Part shown: piece by piece, positions 39,131 through 50,602 of the stretch
Numbering within the stretch: the first letter of the stretch is position 1
Layout: every line of letters starts with the position of its first letter
DNA from: Hexactinellida sp. DTS-2022
Taxonomy: Eukaryota; Porifera; Hexactinellida
Length of the DNA stretch: 64,000 nt
Direction: 5' to 3'
NCBI GenBank assembly: GCA_028753945.1
Contig: JAPNXP010000002.1
Coordinates: forward strand, 15,197,624-15,261,623
The notes under the pieces: model-generated
Database searches by the model: none
Told to the model about the DNA's origin: nothing
The model's input: the letters and a program-made list of their open reading frames with translations, nothing else
Translations under genes and position numbers: made by a program

Positions 39131-42100
39131 TTATTTATTTAAGTCTTTGTAACGTTGTTCGGACTCAACATAAAAATCTTCTAACTGGTATCTCAAATTC
39201 TCAAAAGTAGGCCTAGCGTCTGCATTTACGTTCCAGCAGTCTAGCATTATCTGGTAGAGGTAGTCCGGACAATTTGGGGTTTTCGGCATTCGGTAGCTTC
39301 TGGGCGCGGGGACTTCTGATAGAACCTACATATATAGCGGTAACTAGGGAGCAGCGATGGAATTCAAAGAATGTATTCAAGTAGAGGTGTTTTATATGGG
39401 CATTTAAAACGTGGTTAAACAATGGGTGACAGACCAAATTTTGTGTATCACAAAGGTTAAAAAAACGTGACATAGGAAGGGGTGTCTAATTTTCCTAAAT
39501 TATCAATGTGCAACGTTTAAACTAGACAACCCCTTGTTAGTTACAGTTATATAATTCTCACTAAAGTAAACCTGTGTAATCCGACCCTCTATAATCCGGA
39601 ATTCGCATTAATCAAACACAAATTCCTATCCCAACGACTGTCGGATTATACAGGTTCTACTGTAACAGATTTTACAGCAAAGGAATTATCCAGGAGCGCG
39701 AGACGCTCCTTTTGGAGTATGATTTTGGAAAATTTGAATTTAGGAGCGCGAAAATTTGGAACCCTCTCCTACACCGTAACATTAATTTGTGATTTAGGCG
39801 TATAAAATAGGATCAGACCAGGATTAGGAGCGTATTAACAAACGTGTTTACAAATAATACACTGTTCTACAGTTCCAATTAGCTGATCGAAGGGCTCGTA
39901 TAATTAAAATTTCACTCTACTATAAACCGGAATTTGCCTTTTACACATTTACAGTGTAATCTCACCTGGGCATTGGTCATGCCTGGATAAGGGATTCTCC
40001 CCAAAGTTATAATTTCCATCATTAGAACTCCAAAACTCCACACATCAGACTTTATTGTGAATCTATTAATCATAAAGTAAACAACTGAGGTAAACACAAA
40101 CAAAATAATTTGTTTTCTTGTTAACAACACCTTTTATGTGATTGTATTGCTATAATAAACAACAACAAATATATAATACAGTGGAGGTATATTAACACGT
40201 GACTTTAGTATTCTGTTGTTCAGTTCAATAAATCTATAGTTCCAAATTAAGAGAACATATTGTGTTAGCTCAGTTCCTATAATAATTAACAGTTCTATTA
40301 ACAAGCCATAGCTACTGTATTAAGGCCTAATATTGATCTATACAGTAGAACCTCGTTAGTAGGAACACCAGGGGACCCTCAAAATGCGTTCGCCTTATCC
40401 GGAATTCGTATTAACCAATATCATTTGTATTGAAAAGGCTTTGAAGGGGACTAAAATAGTGTTCGTATTAACCAATATCATTTGTATATTAGAAGGCTTT
40501 GAAGGGGACTGAAATAGTGTTCGTATTAACCAATATCATTTGTATATTAGAAGGCTTTGAAGGGGACTGAAATAGTGTTCGTATTAACCAATATCATTTG
40601 TATATTAAAAGGCTTTGAAGGGGACTGAATAGTGTTCGTATTAACCGAAATTACGTATTAACCGTGTTCGTATTTAACGAGGTTCTACTGTAGTCAGTAA
40701 TACAGATAGCCCATAGCGTGTCCATGGTACATTTGTATTAACCTGTTATAAAGAGCCGCCTCTGGGGAGGTCCACTTAATAGGGAACTTAGCACCAGTGC
40801 GAGCCTCGTAAATATCCTCATCGATAATCCGAGCTAAACCGAAGTCTGCTACTTTGATCTGATTGTTGTCTCCTACTAGCACATTTCTAGCTGCCAGATC
40901 TCTGTGTATATAGTGATGCAGCTCTAAATGAGCCATGCCAGACGCAACCTATAAGGCGAGGGAATGTGGTAATACAGTCAGGCTATGATATAATCCTATA
41001 GTGCTATACAGTCAGGTTCTTATTATGAACATTCAAGGGGATAATATTGTGTTCATAATAGAGAGACTTTATAATAAGCGAACTCAACTTAATACAAACC
41101 CTATGTAAGTTGTTAAATTGGGACCATAGGGCTTGTTCATAATAAACCTAATAGTAGGTGTATACAGTAAACTTCCGTTATAAGGAAGTCGGATATAACG
41201 AAATAACTGCTTATAACGAAATGGATAATTTCCACTAGAGCACTAAATGCATTAATTATTATCCGAATATAACGAAGGAATTTACAGGTTCCCAAGCACT
41301 TCGTTATAACCGGCATCTACTGTATACACTATAACCGTATGTACCGTTGACTAATACTTACCTGTGCGCCTATATCGATTAGCTCGGGCTCCTTATACTT
41401 AATACCGTCCCCTTTCTGCAGGAAGTCCAGGAGAGCCCCTCTGGACATATACTCCGTCACAATGTATATAGGCTCCTCCAGGGTACACACAGCATACAGC
41501 TGTATCAGGTTCTCGTGGTGCAACTTCTTCATGATGGTGGCCTCTGCTAGGAAGTCGTCTCGAGTCATGGTCCCAGCTCGGAGGGTCTTAATCGCTACCT
41601 AAGGAAACAACAACAACAATAACAACAATAGTAATAGTAATAAGTAATAACAACAATAACAGTAATAACAACAACAATAATAATATTAACAACAATTAGA
41701 ATAAGGGAATCCTTATACAGAGCTGAGCTTTGTAGAGTTCAGATTTTTTCCCATACTAAAAGCCCAGGCTTACTTTCTAAAGGTCAATTTCAAACTCTGG
41801 AAAAAAACTGACCTTTCTCAGTGCCTGAATACACATAGTGAAAAACTGAACTCTACTAGAGCTGAGCTCTATATAAGTAATCTCTTAGAATAATAACAAC
41901 AACAACAACAACAGTATTATTAGTGTAGTTTGTATGTTGCATTAATTAATTAATTAAATTGCTTGATATAACTCTGTTTGTTTGTTAATTTGTTAATATG
42001 TTCCTTATTATATTTATTATTATTCTTGTATTTGTTTGTTTGTTAATATGTTTATTTTTTGTTAATTCCTCTGACTATTGTTTAATTTGGTTTATTTATT

Positions 42101-50000: not shown

Positions 50001-50602
50001 AAATAGTATAACAAAATTGAAATTCCTTACACATTTTGGAAAAAATAGTTACTAGTAAACACAAATTAGGTAGAAAACACCGGGTTTCGACTTAGTCATT
50101 CGTAGTACCAGCTAGAGATATGGAACTAACAGTTAACTAGTTCCAATTTATTCAAAACCCCTAAGGTTCCGGTTTATATGTAGTCCAATATACACTATGG
50201 TTTATAGTTCCATATACACTACGGGTTTATAGTTCCATATACTGTACACTATATAACTCACTCGCACAGCTGTAGAGATCCGCTCTTGGCCAGATAGCTG
50301 CTGGGCACATGCACCATGGATCCCGTGTTAGTAGAGATCAGACTCCAATACTGGTCCCCCCAGGCCCCCTCTGACGCCCTGACCAGGTCCCCCTTCTTAA
50401 GAACAGAGTCTCCGTCTGAGAAATCGAAGCGTACAACCAGAACTAACTCTGAAACCGACAGCGACACCTTCCCAATAGTGCCCTGGGCAATTGTGGAGGT
50501 TGAGGATTGACTTTTGTGCGTTTCGTATATTATAGGAGCGGTGTCTTTAATTTTGTGTTTGGAAGGTTGGTGAACTGAATTGCTACTCGAGGTACAACCC
50601 AT
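47073..50602 (-). CDS. Src-type pseudokinase (SH3-SH2-kinase, catalytic residues lost)
   Basis: Six exons join in frame to 494 residues: 50262-50602, 49381-49804, 48777-49007, 48253-48437, 48018-48114 and 47073-47279. It starts MGCTSSS, so myristoylation is likely. A diverged SH3 (about 57-110) and SH2 (about 115-212) precede a kinase-like domain. The SH2 phosphotyrosine arginine is replaced (FLVH for FLVR). The catalytic lysine is Arg259 (VSVRT), the helix C glutamate aligns with Ser274, HRD is HGN (347-349), DFG is DLG, and the activation segment is about eight residues shorter than in Src and lacks the usual tyrosine context. Introns fall at the same places as in the neighbouring active Src kinase: before VAIK/VSVR, after the GAQ/CAQ motif, and before and after the SDVWSFG exon. 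It is probably a tandem duplicate now serving as a membrane adaptor or regulator; that role is inference. All reading frames are open, so it is not an evident pseudogene. Confidence 0.9.
47300..47455. repeat. Insertion with G-run and inverted CAGTG-GTGTTT ends
   Basis: CAGTGATGTTTAAGG plus a run of 13 G at the left, and CCTTTTTTGGCAAAACACCACTG at the right. AGTATGTTATG occurs on both sides. It lies just beside the last exon of the pseudokinase. Confidence 0.55.
47788..47941. mobile_element. hAT-like MITE (184-bp family), left-truncated
   Basis: Starts within the family at GTAAATACGCTCCTAATCCT and ends CTGGATAATTCCTTG. It lies in the last pseudokinase intron. Confidence 0.8.
49077..49260. repeat. 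CAGT-type MITE, family C (clean copy)
   Basis: CAGTCGACTCCGCTTAATAG and TTAAGCGGAGTCGACTG are perfect inverted ends. It is flanked by (CAAA)n in an intron of the pseudokinase. Confidence 0.92.
49921..50090. repeat. CAGT-type MITE, family J
   Basis: CAGTCGAAACAGGTTTTTCTAA at the left. The right end is diverged (ACCGGGTTTCGACT). Copies also at 52902 and 63598. Confidence 0.75.

Follow-up and report, generated by a model that had tools for sequence, protein, structure and literature searches.

A coding Src-type pseudokinase gene next to an active Src gene in a hexactinellid sponge

To our knowledge every member of the Src family is regarded as an active enzyme, and we know of regulatory pseudokinase partners for EGFR, RAF and JAK, but of none for Src. 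Regulation in trans is illustrated by the kinase-pseudokinase pairs EGFR-HER3 and RAF-KSR (PMC8141879), and HER3, KSR, the JAK JH2 domain and EphB6/EphA10 are described as inactive or weak relatives which regulate kinase signalling (PMC8141879, PMC7586955). SLAP is reported to be a duplicate of Src without the kinase domain and has been proposed to compete with components of the Src pathway (PMC6562749). A search of the open-licence literature returned no described Src pseudokinase, which is weak evidence as other literature lay outside its coverage; in Schistosoma four of 34 tyrosine kinases are predicted to be inactive (PMC3135232), and an inactive Src relative may exist there. Here we describe two adjacent genes, one coding for an active Src kinase (ACT) and the other for a Src-type pseudokinase (PSE), in a 64,000-nucleotide stretch (the window) of contig JAPNXP010000002.1 (positions 15,197,624 to 15,261,623, forward strand) of Hexactinellida sp. 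DTS-2022 (assembly GCA_028753945.1). Our preferred reading, to which we give about even chances, is that PSE is a Src-family pseudokinase of old standing, membrane-anchored, kept coding by selection and most likely a tandem duplicate of ACT, which acts through its C-lobe.

The gene pair and the residues lost by the pseudokinase

We reconstructed the two genes one exon at a time. ACT (39131-46121, eight exons, 527 aa) and PSE (47073-50602, six exons, 494 aa) are encoded on the minus strand and separated by 951 bases (46122-47072). All 12 introns, seven in ACT and five in PSE, are bounded by GT-AG, and neither coding sequence contains an internal stop. The five PSE introns, of phases 2, 0, 0, 2 and 0, correspond by position and phase to ACT introns 2, 4, 5, 6 and 7; for the fourth the match is exact if one counts back from KSDVW downstream, and one residue off if one counts from upstream. 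Both proteins begin with MGC and possess Ser at position 6, and the N-terminus of PSE, MGCTSSS, fits what we take to be the myristoylation/palmitoylation motif. The first-pass annotation of this DNA had proposed two same-strand neighbours sharing an SH3-SH2-kinase layout, an MGC start and kinase-domain intron positions, with PSE in frame over six exons and 494 residues, and the rebuilt models bear this out. A fusion or a JAK-like tandem protein is not favoured, ACT and PSE each having its own start and stop.

The SH3, SH2 and tyrosine kinase domains of ACT are all strongly recognized by Pfam. In PSE the kinase (1.3e-56) and SH2 (4.9e-11) domains were found, but Pfam detected no SH3 domain, even in a lax scan of the SH3 segment. 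An AlphaFold2 (AF2) model of this segment, for which the alignment consisted of the ACT segment only, has a mean predicted local distance difference test score (pLDDT) of 73.4. The 50 PDB matches listed for the model are almost all SH3 domains of Src, Hck, Yes, Lck and Fyn with template modelling (TM) scores of about 0.6; the best E value is 1.2e-3, and there were no PDB matches at E 0.001. The SH3-SH2-tyrosine kinase order is present in PSE, SH2 and kinase by Pfam and SH3 by the fold model only. The best PDB match for both proteins is c-Src [PSE, 3e-68; ACT, 5e-182], and these E values exclude a chance likeness. ACT has the domain order of the Src family, the catalytic residues, the FLVR Arg and the tail Tyr, as well as GxM and GxKF, which are given as SrcM-specific motifs (PMC8662651). 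The latter are AGTM and GAKF in ACT, while PSE, with SKSL and a deletion at these places, is without both.

Like the Src-family kinases c-Src, Fyn and Hck, PSE combines an MGC start and the SH3-SH2-kinase order with c-Src as best PDB match and a probable position within the Src clade (see below). Unlike them it lacks Lys295, Glu310, the Arg and Asp of HRD, two glycine-loop Gly, the P+1 loop, the FLVR Arg, Trp260 and Tyr527. Losses were scored at columns invariant in human Src (2h8h chain), ACT, SFK2 and SFK3 (two further active Src genes in this genome) and an Abl-like gene, gaps in Abl being allowed. Nineteen of these columns were labelled catalytic (catalytic, nucleotide, activation-loop and P+1) according to our own list, which was drawn up after PSE had been inspected, and PSE retains five of them (Gly276, Asn391, Asp404, Gly406 and Tyr416). 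In the glycine loop Gly274 is replaced by Ala and Gly279 by Ser; VAIK reads VSVR (Lys295Arg); helix C Glu310 is Ser; HRD has become HGN (Arg385-Asp386 to Gly-Asn); Phe405 of DFG is Leu with Asp404 retained; and Arg409 is Asp. Eight alignment columns of the activation segment, including the P+1 stretch, are missing. The residues at Lys295, Glu310, Asp386 and Asp404 are R, S, N and D, that is, three of the four catalytic residues are gone. If a pseudokinase is a kinase which has lost at least one of the VAIK Lys, HRD Asp and DFG Asp, PSE qualifies through the first (Lys to Arg) and the second (Asp to Asn). HER3 and JAK2 JH2 are reported to carry a change at the HRD Asp comparable to that in PSKH2, where it is Asn (HRN) (PMC7586955). 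The loss of the catalytic Lys (VSVR), the helix C Glu, the HRD Asp (HGN) and eight activation-segment residues had been noted in the first-pass annotation, and all are confirmed; its identification of PSE as a Src-type pseudokinase likewise holds at the level of sequence (domains, lost VAIK Lys and HRD Asp).

The phosphotyrosine pocket of the PSE SH2 domain is altered at Arg155 (Lys), the FLVR Arg175 (His), Glu178 (Ser) and His201 (Gln). The FLVR Arg is reported as His also in TYK2 and RIN2 (PMC7530234), which are other proteins, so that the likeness is limited to an altered SH2 pocket. In the linker Trp260 is replaced by Leu, as is Tyr527 in the tail. Since the pocket, Tyr527 and Trp260 are all changed, the SH2-tail latch is gone; judged from these columns, PSE has lost residues of catalysis together with both halves of the latch and the linker Trp260.

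Outside the catalytic columns PSE keeps 42/59 invariants in the C-lobe, 9/20 in the N-lobe, 11/24 in SH2, 4/11 in SH3 (7/11 changed), 2/6 in the linker and 0/1 in the tail. The C-lobe differs from SH3, SH2, linker and N-lobe taken together (26/61) with p = 0.0018, a contrast picked post hoc. Identity between PSE and ACT is 28% in SH3, 28% in SH2, 15% in the linker and 24% in the N-lobe, and rises to 48% in the C-lobe up to APE and 52% after APE; the corresponding values for ACT and human Src are 67, 61, 55, 68, 60 and 59%. Constraint on PSE, as read from these comparisons, is strongest in the kinase C-lobe. Four-fold degenerate sites of PSE and ACT are identical in just 19/57 cases, and synonymous sites are therefore saturated. 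Gene conversion of the C-lobe from ACT was ruled out, as four-fold sites there (8/31 identical) are as different as elsewhere.

The SH2 domain of SLAP binds phosphotyrosine. One might suppose that PSE acts in the manner of SLAP, its N-terminal anchor and SH3 domain being active as an adaptor and its kinase domain an inert remnant, but this we consider unlikely. The MGC start with Ser6 would suit such a role, as would the match of the modelled SH3 segment to Src SH3 and the conservative changes in the SH3 pocket (Tyr90Phe, Tyr92Phe and Trp118Tyr, with Pro133 and Tyr136 retained). Vertebrate SLAP/SLA is itself reported to have arisen by SRC duplication and to be a lipid-anchored Src duplicate without catalysis (PMC6562749), anchoring and inactivity being predicted for PSE. 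SLAP, however, dropped the kinase domain and kept SH3-SH2, whereas PSE has a kinase domain recognized at 1.3e-56, keeps the C-lobe best and has lost the FLVR Arg and with it the SH2 phosphotyrosine pocket. Low constraint in SH3 and SH2 with the highest in the C-lobe is the reverse of SLAP.

Origin of the pair and age of the coding frame

Vertebrate SRC genes carry the four kinase-domain intron positions. The intron set shared by PSE and ACT is thus probably ancestral to the Src family and, for this reason, is alone no proof that the two are sisters. Three active Src genes were modelled, namely ACT, SFK2 (our locus L009) and SFK3 (L010, situated on the contig of ACT approximately 196 kb further along). 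Of these ACT alone possesses the five PSE intron positions in full, some being absent from SFK2 and SFK3. A tree of 11 rows and 388 columns, in which SH3 was left out and the other kinases were five of the eight loci L001-L008, places PSE inside the Src clade with support of 93/94, the first value lying below the tool's own mark of 95. In the best tree PSE pairs with ACT, with weak support (81/59), on a branch 17 times longer than that of ACT (4.9 versus 0.28). In the approximately unbiased (AU) test a grouping of the four active Src-type rows without PSE was rejected (p-AU 0.013), while pairings of PSE with SFK3 (0.265) or human Src (0.31) were not.

Two other sources of PSE were tried. A copy of SFK2 is rejected by the AU test (0.011); SFK3 was discarded because its intron set differs, although the AU value does not reject it. 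No second PSE-like gene is evident among the 89 matches listed for the genome, six of which are the PSE exons and 83 of which show 22-46% identity, in a search that scores its best candidates only.

The proposal in the first-pass annotation of a tandem duplication fares less clearly than the gene models: adjacency and the full intron set favour ACT as the source, and the weak pairing and the unrejected alternatives leave it short of proof. Duplication of an ancestor of ACT is, on these comparisons, the simplest and most likely account, not a proven one. That PSE is not the sister of ACT and had an origin apart from such a duplication has a small but real chance of being correct. PSE is as similar to human Src (33.5% identity) as to ACT (33.2%), the two pairings named above are tolerated, and Src-Aque1, a family specific to sponges and described from Amphimedon, is reported to be variable at the SrcM-specific motifs (PMC8662651), both of which PSE lacks; Src-Aque1 also resembles PSE in its SH3-SH2-kinase layout. 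Against a separate origin are the position of the genes on the same strand 951 bases apart, the intron set found only in ACT, the rejection of the active Src rows as a group without PSE, and the numbers of residues which PSE has in common with a single one of the four Src-type proteins (ACT 21, SFK2 16, human Src 14 and SFK3 7).

When the ACT coding sequence was allowed to drift neutrally to 33.2% identity it acquired a mean of 18.1 stops (range 8-29, 200 runs), as compared with none in PSE. Neutral drift of the SH3-to-N-lobe part alone from an ACT-like start requires approximately 0.45 substitutions per site to reach the level of PSE; none of 300 such runs was free of stops, and 27.5 stops would be expected in 494 codons at this distance. 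We also fitted a hand-written codon model to 429 columns of five sequences, in which PSE had an omega of its own and the others shared a second one. A free omega for PSE is better than omega = 1 in 5/5 topologies by 8.1-13.9 log-likelihood units. The branch omega was rejected as a number, PSE having hit the bound of 60 in 8/10 fits with omega not fixed at 1, and with the topology (ABL,(SFK2,SFK3),(PSE,ACT)) the free fit (-7053.01) failed to reach its optimum, being lower than the fit with one ratio (-7050.75); we therefore rely solely on the contrast with omega 1. That PSE was kept rather than left to decay, as its open frame had suggested at first, agrees with the stop simulations, the codon model and the saturated synonymous sites: it has stayed coding far longer than neutral drift permits, and its divergence, by these measures, is not simple decay.

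Somewhat less probable still than a separate origin is that PSE is a fast-evolving Src copy which died recently, selection having ended too lately for stops to appear. The very long branch and the disappearance of most ligand-binding and catalytic motifs are what one would expect of such a copy. Every splice site and the whole frame are intact, however, the extra divergence in SH3, SH2 and N-lobe calls for approximately 0.45 neutral substitutions per site, a distance that should bring 27.5 stops, and the C-lobe is constrained while synonymous sites are saturated; recent death would fit only if roughly 0.05 substitutions per site or fewer have accumulated since. It is very improbable that the main use of the PSE exons is to provide ACT with alternative 5' exons, giving hybrid Src proteins: the genes are 951 bases apart on one strand and, because the introns match in phase, in-frame splicing of PSE exon 1 to ACT exon 3 and of PSE exon 2 to ACT exon 5 (phases 2 and 0) is possible, but PSE ends in last exons and a stop codon of its own, and hybrids would drop its most constrained part, the C-lobe.

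Other features of the locus and the window

The exons of both genes are listed in Table 1. ACT exon 3 comes first among the 62 matches listed in a genome-wide search for SH2, and the complement of tyrosine kinases and SH2 domains points to an animal genome.

Table 1. Exons of PSE and ACT, with positions in the window
Feature	Position	Strand	Basis
PSE exon 1: MGC..S start (SH4-like), unique region, divergent SH3	50262..50602	-	gene model; AF2 SH3 match
PSE exon 2: SH2 (His in place of the FLVR Arg), linker, first part of N-lobe, broken glycine loop AEGICS	49381..49804	-	Pfam SH2 4.9e-11
PSE exon 3: N-lobe, VSVR for VAIK, helix C Glu to Ser	48777..49007	-	gene model, alignment
PSE exon 4: catalytic loop HGNLTSQN, DLG, activation segment 8 residues shorter, APE present	48253..48437	-	alignment
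PSE exon 5: helix F region SDVWSFG, conserved C-lobe	48018..48114	-	alignment
PSE exon 6: conserved end of C-lobe, tail without Tyr527 position, stop TAG	47073..47279	-	alignment
ACT exon 1: MGC start, unique region	46022..46121	-	gene model
ACT exon 2: remaining unique region and SH3 (SLYDY)	45137..45455	-	gene model, Pfam
ACT exon 3: SH2 with FLVRES	42778..43064	-	gene model, Pfam
ACT exon 4: linker with Trp260, glycine loop GAGQFG	42272..42414	-	gene model, alignment
ACT exon 5: VAIK, helix C Glu	41362..41598	-	gene model, alignment
ACT exon 6: Tyr416, GAKFPIK	40743..40948	-	gene model, alignment
ACT exon 7: helix F region	39966..40062	-	gene model
ACT exon 8: end of C-lobe, tail with Tyr527 site (EQRY), stop TAA	39131..39325	-	gene model, alignment

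A partial copy of the ACT region is present on another contig (L011, G000 C1:12825800-12835700), where positions ~5-1022 match window 38847-39474 and comprise ACT exon 8, the sequence 3' of it and a portion of intron 7. The copy consists of three pieces which are 83-92% identical to the ACT region, and no other ACT exons were found in this 9.9-kb locus. An element similar to window 49074-49265 lies between two of the pieces that are adjacent in the window, and looks like an insertion after duplication. Short elements with ends resembling cagtagaacctcgttagtagg or cagtcgactccgcttaatagagcc were recognized by eye in introns and intergenic sequence of the window (40350-40680, 45640-45970, 49074-49265 and 50730-50915); they resemble miniature inverted-repeat transposable elements (MITEs) of the pogo/Tigger type.

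Elsewhere in the genome, at ~1360-2304 of L013 (G000 C11:30000-39500, minus strand), there is a tyrosine-kinase-like frame with VAVE (no VAIK Lys), an FRD catalytic loop and no DFG Asp, which resembles the RYK/PTK7-type pseudokinases; the stretch read contains two in-frame stops, perhaps introns. The window also contains two pieces of a serine/threonine kinase frame at 6723-8075 on the minus strand (Pkinase 1.2e-44 for the piece 6723-7445), which resembles CDK1, a TRAF/MATH-domain frame at 8560-9639 (minus, Pfam 2.6e-18), a single 429-residue frame with NHL repeats at 36414-37703 (plus, Pfam 4.1e-19) and a NADAR-domain frame at 54326-55237 (minus, Pfam 1.4e-12). The 931-residue open frame at 9833-12628 (plus) has no Pfam match at E 0.001.

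Possible role of the pseudokinase

If PSE is, as we favour, an old and still coding pseudokinase, its protein would be made and N-acylated at Gly2/Cys3, would be incapable of phosphate transfer, and would reside at the membrane uncoupled from Csk and phosphotyrosine control. The preserved C-lobe might then provide a docking surface which competes or pairs with active Src-family kinases for common partners, and PSE could serve as a decoy or scaffold tuning the output of these kinases. In its predicted inactivity PSE is comparable to HER3, KSR, JAK JH2 and EphB6/EphA10; unlike these it belongs to the Src family. A more ambitious version, which we regard as doubtful, is that PSE would be the first selected Src-family pseudokinase, having shed catalysis along with the SH2-tail latch, with a permanently open, anchored C-lobe regulating ACT in trans, and having arisen independently in an early-branching animal.

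A number of points have to be set against the preferred reading. The docking function is one that we infer, and conservation of the C-lobe could stem from folding alone. The AF2 model of the PSE SH2 segment is uninformative (pLDDT 45.5). Losses at catalytic columns exceed those at other kinase invariants with p = 0.0039 if each deleted residue is counted, but with p = 0.073 if the six deleted columns are taken as one event; preferential loss at catalytic columns is suggestive only. Since synonymous sites are saturated the point estimates of omega are unusable, and the extreme PSE branch fits weak constraint too. A recent loss of function is conceivable, as approximately 0.05 neutral substitutions per site would leave the frame free of stops with P ~0.05, indels not counted. 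Some residual activity of PSE may also be imagined, because the DFG Asp and Asn391 remain and the HER3 pseudokinase is reported to retain an unusual phosphotransfer (PMC3215182).

If PSE is indeed a selected Src pseudokinase, the Src module would be reusable without catalysis and without phosphotyrosine control, and the gene would constitute a natural test that could show which C-lobe surfaces of Src are important apart from enzymatic activity. Regulation of ACT by PSE in trans, a form of the regulatory pair suggested in the first-pass annotation, would, if true, be the Src counterpart of the HER3/EGFR or KSR/RAF pairs. The loss of residues of catalysis together with those of its restraint is a clear evolutionary pattern, which may be checked by comparative genomics.

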